Below the pieces are notes generated by a model, which worked only from the letters and a program-made list of their open reading frames with translations, ran no database searches and was not told the origin of the DNA. From assembly GCA_910575255.1 (NCBI GenBank), contig CAJTEM010000004.1:1-64000 (forward strand): a DNA stretch of 64,000 nt. Direction: 5' to 3'. The translations under genes were made by a program, and so were the position numbers. How positions within the stretch are numbered: position 1 is the stretch's first letter; every line of letters begins with the position of its first letter. Below, in pieces: positions 12,184 to 47,514 of the stretch. This DNA comes from Lachnospiraceae bacterium. Its GTDB lineage: Bacteria > Bacillota > Clostridia > Lachnospirales > Lachnospiraceae.

Positions 12184-12384
12184 ATGACGAAGGAACAGGC
12201 GGAGCGGATTAAAGAGCTTCGGATGCAGGGGAAGGGCTATAAGGCCGTGGCCTCTGCCGTGGGGCTGTCCCGTGACATTGTGCGGAATTACTGCAGGGCG
12301 AACGGGATGGAAGGCTATGGGGAAGCGGTGAAGCTGAACCTGCAGAGAGAGATGGCGGAAGATACCGCCATGCCGGGTGCATGA
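12184..12384 (+). CDS. Small helix-turn-helix protein
   Basis: A 66-residue protein made almost entirely of one HTH: 'KELRMQGKGYKAVASAVGLS' then 'RDIVRNYCRANG', the resolvase/HTH_7-type pattern. Similar phage proteins often continue into a Cys-rich zinc module; here the gene stops early and runs into the next gene by an 8-nt overlap, so it may be a shortened version. It could regulate the modification block or form part of a DNA-targeting complex with it. Confidence 0.6.
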   Translation: MTKEQAERIKELRMQGKGYKAVASAVGLSRDIVRNYCRANGMEGYGEAVKLNLQREMAEDTAMPGA

Positions 12385-13183
12385 GGACGGCGGAAAGGAA
12401 AAGCTGTATGCGGCTTCGCTGTCCGGCGGGAAGGATTCCACGGCCATGGTCCTGCGGCTGGTGGAGGAAGGCTGGCCTTTGGATTTTGTGATGTTCTGTG
12501 ACACGGGGCTGGAATTTCCCCGGATGTATGAGCATGTGGAAAGGCTGGAAAAGGCCCTGCCGGTCCCGGTGGTGCGTCTGAAAGAGGAAAAGGGATTTGA
12601 GTATTATCTTCTCCATTATACACCGGAGAGGAAAGACCCGGATTCCTCTTATGCGGGTATGCCGGGGATGAGCTGGGCAGGTCCTAGGAACCGCTGGTGT
12701 ACGTCCGTGTTGAAGACGGCGGTGATCAACAGGTATCTGTCAGGGCTTAGGAAGAGATATGAGATCGTGCAGTATATCGGCATAGCAGCGGATGAGCCGC
12801 AGAGGGTGAGGGAGTACCGGTATCCCCTGGTGGAATGGGGGATGACGGAGAAGGACTGCCTGGATTACTGCTATGAGCGGGGGTATGACTGGGGCGGGCT
12901 GTACCGGCTGTTTGACCGGGTGTCCTGCTGGTGCTGCCCCCTGCAGGGGCTGGAGGAACTGCGGACGCTGCGCCGGGAGTTTCCGGAGCTGTGGAGCCAG
13001 CTTTTGGAATGGGAGGCGAAAACCTGGCGGAATTTTCGGAAGGATTTTTCCGTGCAGGAGCTGGAAGTCAGGTTCCGGTTTGAGGAAGAACGGCTCCGGG
13101 AGGGAAAACGTATCCGGGGAAAGGATTTTTTTAAGGAACTGTATGGGAGGTTAGGCAGGGATGGAGACAGGGCAGAAATATAA
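12377..13183 (+). CDS. PAPS-reductase-like (adenine nucleotide alpha hydrolase) protein
   Basis: A 268-residue protein. 'YAASLSGGKDSTAMVLRLV' is the PP-loop of the PAPS reductase/ATP pyrophosphatase superfamily, followed by 'FVMFCDTGLEFPRMYEHVERL', a family hallmark. Later Cys-rich sites (RWCTSVLKT and SCWCCPLQGLEEL) resemble the PAPS reductase-like sulfur-transfer group that includes DndC. In phages such genes lie beside DNA methyltransferases, and a role in DNA or tRNA thio-modification is suspected but unproven. The start is a GTG overlapping the HTH gene. The 3' end overlaps the MT-A70 gene by 23 nt. Confidence 0.8.
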   Translation: MHEDGGKEKLYAASLSGGKDSTAMVLRLVEEGWPLDFVMFCDTGLEFPRMYEHVERLEKALPVPVVRLKEEKGFEYYLLHYTPERKDPDSSYAGMPGMSWAGPRNRWCTSVLKTAVINRYLSGLRKRYEIVQYIGIAADEPQRVREYRYPLVEWGMTEKDCLDYCYERGYDWGGLYRLFDRVSCWCCPLQGLEELRTLRREFPELWSQLLEWEAKTWRNFRKDFSVQELEVRFRFEEERLREGKRIRGKDFFKELYGRLGRDGDRAEI

Positions 13184-13747: not shown

Positions 13748-16471
13748 ATGGGAAGGCTTACGTTTCTGGATATCTGTTCGGGGATCGGCGGGTTCCGGCT
13801 GGGGCTGGAATGGGCCGGGCATAAATGCGTTGGTTATTGTGAGTATGATAAGTTTGCGAGGGCTTCCTATGAGGCCATGTATGACACGGAAGGGGAATGG
13901 AAGGCGGAGGATGTGACGAAGCTGACGCCGGAAGAGATCCCCTATGCGGATGCGTGGTGCTTTGGGTTCCCCTGCTTTGAGGCCGGGACGCTGGTGATGA
14001 CGGATCGGGGATATAAGTGTATTGAACATATCCGGGCCGGGGACCGGGTATTGACGCATAAGAACAGGTTCCGCCCGGTGGTGAGGTCCATGAAGCATAA
14101 GGCTGGGGAGATTTATGAGCTGGACGTTTTCGGCGTGGAGAATCTAAGAGTGACCGGTGAGCATCCGTTTCTGGTAAAAGACGGGGATTCTACCAAATGG
14201 AAAGCCGTACAGGAGCTGGAGGCGGGTGATCTGATTGCGGTTCCGGTGAATAACAAGGCGGAGCTGCCGGAGTGGGATGGGATTACTTATGAGCGGCATG
14301 GGAGGGAGTACAGGCTGGACGGCCTTGACCTTGGGAGCCGGGATTTCTGGTGGTTCGTGGGCTGTTATATGGGGGACGGCTGGTATCGGGTCACCAAGAG
14401 GAAGAATGCGTCTGATAGTTACCGGGTGGTGGTTGCCTGCAATGAGGAAAAGCTGGAACGGCTGAAAAGGCATGTGGACGGAATGTTCCGTTACAGTGTG
14501 GCGAAGGAGCGGACGGCTTATAAGGCGCATTTTACGAATAAAGAGCTGACGGTGTTTTTGATGCGGTTTGGGAAAGGCGCGGGAGGAAAGCGGCTGACGG
14601 ATGCGGTTTTCAATCTGCCGGAGGATCTGCTGCGGGCGTTTCTGGAAGGGTATTTTGAGACGGACGGGTGTGTGGTCGGTAAGTACCGGCAGGCATCCAC
14701 GATTTCCAGGGAGCTTGCTTATGGAATCCGGGATTGTGTGCATAAGGCGTACCGTATGCCCTGTGCGGTTTACAGAAATAAGATGCCAAAGACCTGCGTG
14801 ATCGAGGGCAGGACGGTACGGCAGCAAGATTTTTATACGGTGAGGTTTAAGGAAGGGCGGTCTGACAGGGACGGCTCTTTTTTTATGGACGGGTATGTCT
14901 GGTGCCGGTTCAGGGGCAGCAGGAAGGTTCCGTTTGACGGATATGTCTACAACATGGAGGTGGAAGATGACAATTCATACACAGCAGGAGGGCTGGCAGC
15001 CCACAACTGCCAGGATATCTCCATCGCAGGAAAGCAGAGAGGGCTTAGAGGGAAGCGAAGTGGGATCTATTACAGAATTATTGACCTCATCAAAGGCAAA
15101 GAGGAAAGTGATAAGCCCACATACCTACTTGTTGAGAACGTTAAGAACCTGTTATCAGTCAATGCAGGATTCGATTTTGCCGCCGTTCTCTCTGAAATGG
15201 ACGAGGCAGGGTATGACGTGCGGTGGCAGGTGCTTAATTCTAAAGACTTCGGAGTCCCCCAGAACCGGGAGAGGGTATTCCTTATCGCAGTTCTTAGAAG
15301 CAGAGGCGGACGGGAAGTATTACCTGTCACCGGAGAAGACGGCGGAGCTCTTAAAGAGGTTATAGGCGGGATGCAGGGATACCGGGTGTATGACCCGTCC
15401 GGGGTTTCGGTGAGTATCGGGGCGAACGGCGGGGGCATGGGCGCAAAGACCGGGCTGTACTGCGTGGGAGGTGCAGAGCCGGGCGGCCGGGTATTTGTGG
15501 ACCAGACGCTGAACCATCCAAAGGTCACAGAGGTTGCACGGTGCCTGGTGGCACAGTATAATGGCGGACTGACGAATTACGGCAATTCCGGGGTCTTGGA
15601 GGCTGCGGATGCGGTATCAGAAGATAAGGGCGGCAGTGTATCAGAAGCCAGGGCGGTGCTGACGCCGGACCGGGTGGAGAAGCGGCAGAACGGCAGGCGG
15701 ATGAAGGAGGCGGGGGAGCCGATGTTCACGTTGACGGCGCAGGACCAGCACGGGGTTTATCTGGCGGAAGAGGTATCCGGGGATGCGGAGACGGCGCTGC
15801 CGGTGAGGAACGGCACGAAGCAGGGGTATGACCTGGCTTATCCGGGGGACGGCGTGTGCCTGTCGTACCCGAAGAGTGAATCCCGGCGGGGCCGGGTTGG
15901 AAAGGGCTGTTCGCAGACGCTGGATACGGGGTGCATGATGGGGACGGTGACGAAGTGCGGGAAGATCCGGAGGCTGACGCCCCGTGAGTGTTTCCGCCTG
16001 CAGGGGTTCCCGGATGAGCTGTATGAGCGGGCGGCGGCTGTCAATTCGGAGACACAGCTTTACAAGCAGGCCGGGAACGCGGTCACGGCGACAGTGGCTT
16101 ATGCGGTGGCCATGGCGCTGCCGGAGAGCCGGGAGCTTCTGGCGCGGACAGAGGCTGTGTGGGAAGAGTTCGGGGATTCCGTGAGGGCGGATGGCTGGAA
16201 AGGCGCTGCCGGTTTTGTGCCGGGGACGGCGTGGGAGGACTTTGGCGATTCTGTCCGGGTTATATCGCGGGAAGATTTCAGCGGCTCTATACGGGATACA
16301 GCATGGGAAGATTTTTCTGATTCCGTGGAGGAAATGGAAAGCGGAGAATTTAAGGGTTCTGTATCAGATACGGTATGGGATGGTTTTGAAGATATGAAGG
16401 ATATGGAAGCAGGGGATGTGTCCGGGGATTCCGGGGCGGAGCCTGACGGGGAGTTTGATTTTCTGAATTAG
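13748..16471 (+). CDS. DNA cytosine-5 methyltransferase interrupted by an intein
   Basis: A 907-codon frame from ATG 13748. The N-extein (residues 1-75) has motif I 'FLDICSGIGGFRLGLEW' and runs to 'CFGFP'. The intein (residues 76-420) follows, then the C-extein resumes with 'CQDISIAGKQRGLRGKRSG', rebuilding motif IV GFPCQDIS. Later motifs are 'LLVENVKNLLS' (ENV), 'QNRERVFLIAVL' (QxRxR), 'RRLTPRECFRLQGFPDE' and 'QAGNAVTATVAYAVAMAL'. After splicing the enzyme would be about 562 residues. A C-terminal tail (from about 16158) repeats a W-E/D-x-F-x-D-S-V motif. It is last in the modification block; the terminase follows. Confidence 0.92.
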   Translation: MGRLTFLDICSGIGGFRLGLEWAGHKCVGYCEYDKFARASYEAMYDTEGEWKAEDVTKLTPEEIPYADAWCFGFPCFEAGTLVMTDRGYKCIEHIRAGDRVLTHKNRFRPVVRSMKHKAGEIYELDVFGVENLRVTGEHPFLVKDGDSTKWKAVQELEAGDLIAVPVNNKAELPEWDGITYERHGREYRLDGLDLGSRDFWWFVGCYMGDGWYRVTKRKNASDSYRVVVACNEEKLERLKRHVDGMFRYSVAKERTAYKAHFTNKELTVFLMRFGKGAGGKRLTDAVFNLPEDLLRAFLEGYFETDGCVVGKYRQASTISRELAYGIRDCVHKAYRMPCAVYRNKMPKTCVIEGRTVRQQDFYTVRFKEGRSDRDGSFFMDGYVWCRFRGSRKVPFDGYVYNMEVEDDNSYTAGGLAAHNCQDISIAGKQRGLRGKRSGIYYRIIDLIKGKEESDKPTYLLVENVKNLLSVNAGFDFAAVLSEMDEAGYDVRWQVLNSKDFGVPQNRERVFLIAVLRSRGGREVLPVTGEDGGALKEVIGGMQGYRVYDPSGVSVSIGANGGGMGAKTGLYCVGGAEPGGRVFVDQTLNHPKVTEVARCLVAQYNGGLTNYGNSGVLEAADAVSEDKGGSVSEARAVLTPDRVEKRQNGRRMKEAGEPMFTLTAQDQHGVYLAEEVSGDAETALPVRNGTKQGYDLAYPGDGVCLSYPKSESRRGRVGKGCSQTLDTGCMMGTVTKCGKIRRLTPRECFRLQGFPDELYERAAAVNSETQLYKQAGNAVTATVAYAVAMALPESRELLARTEAVWEEFGDSVRADGWKGAAGFVPGTAWEDFGDSVRVISREDFSGSIRDTAWEDFSDSVEEMESGEFKGSVSDTVWDGFEDMKDMEAGDVSGDSGAEPDGEFDFLN
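13973..15007 (+). other. Intein with LAGLIDADG-type homing endonuclease
   Basis: A 345-residue intein. It starts at Cys76 (CFEAGTLVMTDRGYKCIEHI, block A), has block B 'ENLRVTGEHPFLV' (TxxH) and ends 'NSYTAGGLAAHN' before Cys+1, giving the canonical His-Asn/Cys splice junction. The middle carries two dodecapeptide motifs, 'WWFVGCYMGDGW' and 'AFLEGYFETDGCV', of the DOD homing endonuclease with both acidic residues (D) present. All residues needed for splicing are visible, so it is probably active. The Cys+1 nucleophile is itself the methyltransferase catalytic cysteine. Confidence 0.93.
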
Positions 16472-16507
16472 AAGGTGTGTGGGCTGGTACGGAGGGAGGT
16501 GAGCGCG

Positions 16508-16987
16508 GTGGCGCAGAGAGGGCGGAAGCCGAAGCCTACGGCGGTGAAGGTGCTGGAGGGGAATCCTGGGAAGCGGGGGCTGAATGCGGGGGAGCCGAAG
16601 CCGGAGAAGAAGGCTCCCAGGTGTCCGGCGTGGCTGGAAGCGGAGGCGAAGAAGGAATGGAAGCGGATGGCGAAGCAGATGGAGCGGCTTGGGATTCTGA
16701 CGGAGATTGACATGGCGGCCTTTGCGGGGTACTGCCAGGCGTATGCCAGGTGGAAGGAAGCGGAGGAATATATTTCCGAGCATGGGGCGATCATGGAGAC
16801 GCCTTCGGGGTACTGCCAGCAGGTCCCGCAGGTGTCCATTGCGCAGACTTACCTGAAGATCATGAACCGGTTCTGTGAGCAGTTCGGGCTTACGCCTTCT
16901 TCCCGGAGCCGGATCGTGGCGGATGCCGGGGAGGATAAGGAGAGCGACGCTATGGAGATCCTGTTGTTCAAGGGAGGCGGAGGATAG
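16508..16987 (+). CDS. terS: Terminase small subunit, P27 family
   Basis: A 159-residue P27-type small terminase. The opening 'AQRGRKPKPTAVKVLEGNPG' is the family's basic N-terminal signature, followed by 'CPAWLEAEAKKEWKRMAKQM' and 'YLKIMNRFCEQFGLTPSSRSR'. It binds phage DNA and hands it to the large subunit. I chose GTG 16508 with GGAGGGAGGTGAGCG upstream; the frame is also open from a GTG at 16475. Its last base is the first base of the large subunit gene (GTG), a one-base overlap. Confidence 0.9.
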   Translation: MAQRGRKPKPTAVKVLEGNPGKRGLNAGEPKPEKKAPRCPAWLEAEAKKEWKRMAKQMERLGILTEIDMAAFAGYCQAYARWKEAEEYISEHGAIMETPSGYCQQVPQVSIAQTYLKIMNRFCEQFGLTPSSRSRIVADAGEDKESDAMEILLFKGGGG

Positions 16988-19535: not shown

Positions 19536-19561
19536 ACTTTTGCATATTTTAGGAGGTGTTT

Positions 19562-46494: not shown

Positions 46495-47514
46495 ATGAGC
46501 AGTACATTTACCTTTATAGATTTATTCTGTGGAATCGGCGGGTTCCGTCTGGCTATGGAGAGCATCTGCGGCATCTGCGTCTTTTCCTCCGATAAAAGCA
46601 GGAGGGCAAGGGAAACTTACTTTTCCAACTTCCACGAGGTCCCAGCCGGGAACATTACGAAAATAGAGGCTGAAGATATTCCTACCTTTGATGTCCTCTG
46701 CGGCGGCTTTCCCTGCCAGCCGTTCTCCATGGCCGGGAAAAAGAGAGGGTTTGAGGATAAGAGAGGGCAGATGTTTTTTGAAATAGCCCGGATTGTAAAG
46801 CACCACAAACCGAAAGCGCTGTTTCTGGAAAACGTGGCCCACTTAATCCGCCATGACGGCGGAAGAACCTTCCGGGTGATTACAGAAACCCTGGACGGCT
46901 TAGGCTATGATGTCCACTATAAAGTCCTGACGGCTTCCGACTATGGAGTGGCACAGATCCGGAAAAGGGTCTACCTTGTCTGTTTCCGCAAGGATTTACA
47001 AGCGGAGTTTTCCTTCCCTGAACCCACTTTTGAGGATGTGGCTGTTGAGGATTTCCTGGAATCCATTGTTGACGAAAGCTATTTTCTTGATCCTGATCTC
47101 GTTACATTTTACAAACCGGATATTGAGACAAGGACCCTGGACACTTACCGTTTAGGCTATGTCGGCACACCGGGACAGGGCAGGAGGGTTTACAGTGCCA
47201 AGGGCGTTTCCGCAACTTTTGTGGTATCCGCCAGAGGTCCCTGCGGAGGCACGGAAGCGTATCTTGTAAACGGCAGGGTGAGAAGGCCGACACCTGCGGA
47301 AGCAAAACGGATTATGGGATTTCCAGAGGATTTCCTTTTTCCCGTGACAGACAGCAAAGCCCTGGAGCTGCTGGGAAACAGTGTGGCGGTTCCGGTCTTA
47401 AAGCGTATCGCGGGACAGATGGCGGCAACCGGAATATTTGAGAACCAGGAGGATTTTACCAACGGGCAGAGCCGCTCTGTCAGCCTCCAGGACAAGCAGG
47501 AGGCAGCCTCATGA
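46495..47514 (+). CDS. DNA cytosine-5 methyltransferase (HhaI-like)
   Basis: A 339-residue C5 methyltransferase with uninterrupted motifs: I 'FIDLFCGIGGFRLAMES', IV 'VLCGGFPCQPFSMAGKKRGF' with the catalytic Cys, VI 'ALFLENVAHLIRHDGG', VIII 'AQIRKRVYLVCF', IX 'RRPTPAEAKRIMGFPEDFLF' and X 'LLGNSVAVPVLKRIA'. Unlike the prophage enzyme at 13748 it has no intein. It overlaps the following methyltransferase by 4 nt, so the two are co-expressed, probably for protection of a mobile element or as part of a restriction system whose nuclease I do not see. Confidence 0.92.
   Translation: MSSTFTFIDLFCGIGGFRLAMESICGICVFSSDKSRRARETYFSNFHEVPAGNITKIEAEDIPTFDVLCGGFPCQPFSMAGKKRGFEDKRGQMFFEIARIVKHHKPKALFLENVAHLIRHDGGRTFRVITETLDGLGYDVHYKVLTASDYGVAQIRKRVYLVCFRKDLQAEFSFPEPTFEDVAVEDFLESIVDESYFLDPDLVTFYKPDIETRTLDTYRLGYVGTPGQGRRVYSAKGVSATFVVSARGPCGGTEAYLVNGRVRRPTPAEAKRIMGFPEDFLFPVTDSKALELLGNSVAVPVLKRIAGQMAATGIFENQEDFTNGQSRSVSLQDKQEAAS

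Follow-up and report, generated by a model that had tools for sequence, protein, structure and literature searches.

We analyzed an intein that interrupts a prophage-borne DNA methyltransferase gene in a 64,000-nucleotide stretch of DNA from a Lachnospiraceae bacterium (the window; positions 1-64000 of contig C4 in a 5.14-Mb genome of 106 contigs). The gene is an exact open frame from an ATG at 13748 to a stop at 16471, within which a 1035-bp insert (345 codons) lies in frame between the codons for GFP and CQDIS. Its parts are as follows, with conservation counted over a 52-row alignment of inteins:

13748..16471 (+): prophage gene for a C5-cytosine DNA methyltransferase, interrupted by the intein; precursor 907 aa, of which the exteins make up 562 aa
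13748..13972 (+): N-extein, 75 aa, from motif I (DICSGIGG) through the GFP of motif IV
13973..15007 (+): intein, 345 aa, predicted Hint splicing domain with an inserted LAGLIDADG homing endonuclease
13973..13975 (+): Cys1, first splicing nucleophile; 52/52 rows
14153..14164 (+): block B, T61-G-E-H64; Thr61 and His64 in 52/52 rows
14303..14872 (+): approximate endonuclease domain (residues 111-300 of the intein), cut from the predicted secondary structure; the structure matches are whole-length
14351..14380 (+): LAGLIDADG motif 1, WFVGCYMGDG; Asp135 in 51/52 rows, Glu in one
14639..14668 (+): LAGLIDADG motif 2, FLEGYFETDG; Asp231 in 52/52 rows
15002..15007 (+): penultimate His344 and terminal Asn345; 52/52 rows
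15008..15010 (+): Cys(+1), which doubles as second splicing nucleophile and as motif IV cysteine of the enzyme
15008..16471 (+): C-extein; carries the ENV, QNRER, and GNAV motifs and an acidic repeat tail of low model confidence

The precursor matched Pfam DNA_methylase in three stretches (1.7e-59) and NCBIfam TIGR00675 dcm (6.4e-62). Motifs I, IV (PCQ), VI (ENV), VIII (QxRxR), and X (GN), in what we take to be the usual numbering for C5-cytosine methyltransferases, were present in columns that are invariant or nearly so, and P75, C421, and Q422 were invariant in a 41-row extein alignment. By these signatures the host enzyme is a C5-cytosine DNA methyltransferase, predicted to methylate DNA after splicing. 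Its C-terminal tail (16133-16471) has degenerate WEDFGDSV-type repeats of low model confidence, and the C-extein of the intein carriers L002-L005 ranges from 358 to 491 aa.

Class 1 inteins are defined by an N-terminal Cys, a block B TxxH, a C-terminal HN, and a +1 Cys, Ser, or Thr, and the insert has all of these (Cys1, TxxH, HN, and +1 Cys). Its junctions read ADAWCFGFP/C1FEAGTLV on the N-terminal side and GLAAHN345/CQDISIAGK on the C-terminal side (the slash marks the splice point). Taken by itself, the insert matched Pfam Intein_splicing (5.5e-13) and LAGLIDADG_3 (5.5e-7), both above the cut-off; the first match, together with the predicted structure, supports the Hint splicing-domain fold. 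Each of the two LAGLIDADG motifs has an acidic residue, as is required of a homing endonuclease, and the insertion lies in frame within a conserved motif for which intein-free homologues exist, as is required of a class 1 intein. The insert is, on this anatomy, a class 1 intein with a LAGLIDADG endonuclease, predicted to splice and to cut. The insertion and its borders are confirmed far beyond chance.

Part of what the initial annotation had proposed was borne out. The borders it gave were right to the base, the intein-free alleles running uninterrupted across the two junctions; the +1 residue is indeed the enzyme's motif IV cysteine; both aspartates are present in the DOD endonuclease that it named; and the hidden Markov model check that it proposed returned the splicing-domain match, with same-site C5-methyltransferase inteins found in many phages. 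The target does code for a conserved motif, with an uninterrupted GFPCQDIS coding site in at least 120 IMG/VR stretches. Its suggestion that methylation depends on splicing conditions such as the redox state gained no support (see below).

The site is found both occupied and empty. Among 69 related IMG/VR loci, the junction was readable by pattern in 63 (several of the other 6 are fragments starting downstream); 4 of the 63 carried an intein, and 59 had the uninterrupted motif. A junction-pattern search of IMG/VR, in which the CQ side was built in and a P before the first Cys was demanded, counts this site only and is uninformative on others; it yielded 102 relatives and 80 were retained, 78 of them with an intein between P and CQ and two unreadable by the expression used. 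GTDB genomes contributed 14 loci, every one at the same motif IV site. The titles of eight of these name Lachnospiraceae, Dorea, or Schaedlerella, the last two of which we take to be Lachnospiraceae genera, and one locus is from Clostridium caldaquaticum, at 63%. The same-site set is redundant, its 94 rows (with the 14 GTDB loci, L089, and the window's two copies) amounting to 72 distinct inteins. In the family to which the window belongs, the intein matched 14 of 397 genomes at E 0.001, 4 of them at full length. One Schaedlerella arabinosiphila genome has two same-site copies (L188 and L193) about 2.9 Mb apart.

A phage collection gave 172 records matching the intein at E 0.01, and 12 of the 16 examined had it at the motif IV P/C site of a C5-type methyltransferase frame. 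The other four were in NrdD, thymidylate synthase, the Pacc40 methylase, and, at a different place, the methyltransferase of phage Lana. One of the 12, the fecal phage L073 (MT835926.1, 1201-3300), has three in-frame TGA codons (two within the intein and one ahead of it) and was omitted from the alignments; Trp fits at each, suggesting that this phage may read TGA as Trp. A quick 59-row tree left a single origin of the motif IV inteins undecided (the label needs five changes, and the starred branches force one), and its change count is of little use because the group of six "other" inteins wrongly held two jumbo-phage inteins of the same site.

Plasmids gave 140 matching records, 113 of them Escherichia. 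A 341-aa intein sits at the same dmt codon in the P1 record OP279344 and in RCS47, and reference P1 (AF234172) and P7 lack it. Of 5426 complete E. coli genomes, 493 matched the occupied dmt stretch, and the 148 that cover at least 80% were counted as occupied because an allele without the 1023-bp intein covers 63% at most. Among the E. coli or P1-family dmt alleles that were read, five were without and four with the intein, and the empty P1-like alleles were approximately 98% identical to the occupied ones over the flanks compared. With an identity of only about 30% to the window intein, the P1-like intein models the site and not the window's own element. This polymorphism would make homing, co-conversion, and intein competition testable in a standard laboratory phage. 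Reference P1 c1-100 dmt (L208, AF234172.1) reads VWGTPCQ at motif IV, where the relatives read VGGTPCQ.

Next to the insert, the window carries a tract that sets it apart from related intein-free alleles:

13898..13972 (+): putative co-converted tract, 75 bp, sharply divergent from otherwise near-identical intein-free alleles; borders approximate

Compared with the intein-free alleles L007, L008, and L011, the window was 97-98% identical over +30..+330 and 89-95% over -225..-75, but just 68-71% over the 75 bp adjoining the insert. Eleven more distant intein-free alleles were 67-77% identical to the window in this tract, so L007, L008, and L011 are no closer there. The mean identity to these eleven in the tract was 71.4% for the window and 72.1% for the carrier L004, compared with 77.6-78.8% for L007, L008, and L011, and in the other two regions the means differed by at most 1.4 points. 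The divergent tract is, as read from these alignments, a property of the window and of L004. The window sided with L004 against L007 at 17 to 7 sites in -150..0 and at 4 to 25 sites in +30..+330 (Fisher test, 4.6e-5 for L007, 1.3e-6 for L008, and 1.3e-4 for L011). Among carriers, at -150..-75, L003 is nearer L007 (5/75 differences; 12/75 to L011) and the window nearer L011 (3/75; 8/75 to L007), suggestive of two or more transfers or exchanges. Against L109, dN and dS (nonsynonymous and synonymous divergence) came to 0.143 and 1.147 in the endonuclease part, 0.162 and 1.271 in the splicing part, and 0.045 and 0.535 in the flanking extein; all three are conserved by this measure.

These observations very probably reflect a homing intein, a selfish mobile element that occupies a favored spot in a prophage methyltransferase. 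This reading draws on the anatomy, the intact catalytic residues, the predicted fold, the sporadic distribution with occupied and empty alleles, the footprint resembling co-conversion, and the conserved endonuclease part. Class 1 splicing proceeds by an acyl shift at Cys1, transfer to Cys+1, and Asn cyclization, and the precursor would self-splice by this route through Cys1, Cys+1, and Asn345, leaving an unscarred GFPCQDIS active site. The endonuclease would cut intein-free alleles of the same gene in a co-resident phage or prophage, and repair would copy the intein and some flanking DNA into the cut allele. One residue thereby serves as the splicing nucleophile and as the catalytic nucleophile of the enzyme, which ties the intein and the enzyme to each other at this codon. 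We infer from general intein and C5-methyltransferase chemistry why the element may sit there: splicing needs the same residue as the enzyme because Cys(+1) is the motif IV cysteine, and the endonuclease target would persist because losing the codon means losing the enzyme. A placement before the catalytic cysteine would thus be favored by an inescapable codon and a ready +1 nucleophile. It is also reasonable to expect that the precursor is inactive until spliced.

Several results weigh against this account or weaken its support. The tract pattern is the mark expected from homing with co-conversion, but ordinary recombination without cutting could give the same, and the windows compared were picked after inspection of the data. 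When L005 or L198 replaces L004 as donor, the window agrees more often with the intein-free allele even within the tract, and the contrast becomes weaker or absent (p 8e-4 to 0.21); these distant carriers lack the divergent tract (67 and 63% identity to the window there). In seven close pairs, synonymous divergence was higher in the intein than in the flanking extein, contrary to a simple recent spread, the lone exception being the endonuclease part of L187 (0.056 versus 0.112). A footprint looked for in the P1 family was not seen: the occupied L079 differed from the empty L209, L210, and L211 at 3/75 positions next to the site, a rate no higher than elsewhere, and although L079 differed from P7 at 12/75 there, the empty L209 also differed from P7 at 9/75. 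Finally, the model of the whole precursor is so poor (predicted local distance difference test [pLDDT] 66) that it lends no support to, and is uninformative on, precursor inactivity.

An unlikely variant is that the endonuclease acts as a weapon, cutting competing phages or prophages that share the cell but lack the intein and lowering their yield, to the benefit of both phage and intein. The endonuclease residues are intact and conserved, empty target sites are numerous, and closely related phages have both occupied and empty alleles; an intron endonuclease of phage PhiPA3 acts in this way according to the available text of PMC11620839. However, homing alone accounts for everything observed. 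A broader and decidedly speculative extension would have a group of phage inteins specialized on cysteines at the catalytic or radical sites of nucleotide and DNA enzymes (motif IV of C5-methyltransferases, thymidylate synthase, and NrdD), with a target codon that cannot be mutated away and an endonuclease used as a weapon between co-resident prophages; carrying or lacking the intein would then decide which methyltransferase-bearing phage, P1-like phage-plasmids included, survives co-infection.

Quite improbable is a conditional splicing switch in which the intein keeps the methyltransferase off until a redox or other signal arrives, timing or sensing phage DNA methylation. The insert does split the catalytic loop, whose residues 73-76 and 421-438 have a pLDDT below 50 in the poor precursor model, and Cys1, Cys+1, Cys(-5), and eight other intein cysteines are available; the M. 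smegmatis DnaBi1 intein is a precedent for redox-responsive splicing (PMC6195587, in the part available). But no conserved cysteine pair was found in the intein and N-extein across the 52 rows and 78 same-site loci. Cys(-5), the N-extein cysteine closest to the junction, is not tied to the intein because it is present in just 11 of the 78 loci (Val in 35 and Thr in 23), is replaced by Thr in two related carriers (L110 and L198), and occurs in many intein-free alleles. The eight noncatalytic intein cysteines are similarly scattered over the 52 rows (Cys16 in 3, Cys131 in 6, Cys311 in 6, Cys264 in 8, Cys255 in 10, Cys156 in 18, Cys233 in 20, and Cys275 in 21), and near-identical intein-free alleles indicate that the enzyme family manages without an intein. 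The conservation test thus gives no support to a redox switch via Cys(-5), though the DnaBi1 intein also pairs via a nonconserved cysteine (PMC6195587, same part). Extremely improbable is a relic that can no longer splice or cut, for which the jumbo-phage inteins L083-L086 (first LAGLIDADG aspartate replaced; in L083 and L084 the second too) and phage 587AP2 (apparently damaged C-extein) are precedents, since the window intein keeps its splice residues and both aspartates and has a low dN/dS.

The remaining features of the window concern the prophage setting and a second methyltransferase gene that the initial annotation had proposed to include in a cutting test:

at 12377: phosphoadenosine-phosphosulfate-reductase-like gene, prophage neighbor
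at 13161: DNA methyltransferase (separate gene), prophage neighbor
at 16475: terminase small subunit, prophage neighbor
at 16987: terminase large subunit, prophage neighbor
at 19556: portal gene, prophage neighbor
46495..47514 (+): second C5-methyltransferase, intein-free, weak candidate target

The intein-bearing gene is surrounded by prophage genes. In its motif IV DNA, the gene at 46495 matches the window site at 26 of 42 bases, among them a 9-bp run, CCCTGCCAG, across the junction. In the same comparison, seven intein-free relatives shared 31-38 bases, an eighth (L037) 23, and the best unrelated stretch of the window 24, so the gene at 46495 is left as a weak homing target. A third C5-methyltransferase of the genome (contig C25) matched the site at 22/42.

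A literature search, with most subscription papers and InBase outside its scope, returned no description of the C5-methyltransferase motif IV site or the P1 Dmt intein and only general precedents on redox or C5 inteins. The DnaBi1 intein resembles that of the window in its insertion in a functional motif (the P-loop) and its thiol chemistry, but it is a class 3 intein, whereas the window intein is class 1 with no conserved cysteine pair found (PMC6195587, as far as available). In the accessible portions of PMC5050341 and PMC9957025, actinophage methylase inteins (DNMT-1/2; Pacc40) occupy conserved places and move horizontally, and inteins near active centers are a theme of both. The host enzymes in PMC5050341 (same portion) are given as N4/N6 methylases, unlike the C5 enzyme of the window, and the modified base of the PMC9957025 family is unnamed in the text consulted. 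The Pacc40 site reads MHV/CPLQ, unlike GFP/CQDIS, and PMC11855218, in the text accessible, deals with a different Pacc40 insertion.

Solved LAGLIDADG inteins, namely, T. litoralis VMA (7qss), PI-PkoII (intein endonuclease II, 2cw7), and PI-SceI, match the window intein in structure at 16-20% identity over the aligned part and come from other host proteins. The first two BFVD structure ranks were Lactococcus phage AM4 NrdD and the PS1 thymidylate synthase. The top phage match was the NrdD intein of Lactococcus phage P1048 (RV/CGYLS; 34.1%, 2e-52), and the thymidylate synthase intein of Aeromonas phage PS1 (TP/CHF) matched at 29.0% (3e-32); both have a +1 Cys in another enzyme, which we presume to be catalytic or beside the radical glycine. 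Same-site inteins of Nyseid, RCS47 and P1-isolate Dmt, B22, EBPR siphovirus 2, and the jumbo phages Yoloswag, fHe-Yen9-02, Y3, and AD1 share with the window the P/C insertion point, Cys1, HN, and +1 Cys at 20-34% identity, the jumbo-phage versions having replaced endonuclease aspartates. The jumbo-phage loci L083-L086 (1501-2571) combine this endonuclease decay with retained splicing residues. An intact intein is followed, in L076, L157, and L158 (Mannheimia phage 587AP2 type), by a C-extein that departs from the methyltransferase sequence soon after the junction (CQSDKG...), so that the enzyme looks broken. Against this background, the window intein belongs to a known type of element, found at an unusually informative site. 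Its interest lies in the dual-role cysteine, the breadth of the site across very different phages, and the prospect of tests in P1.
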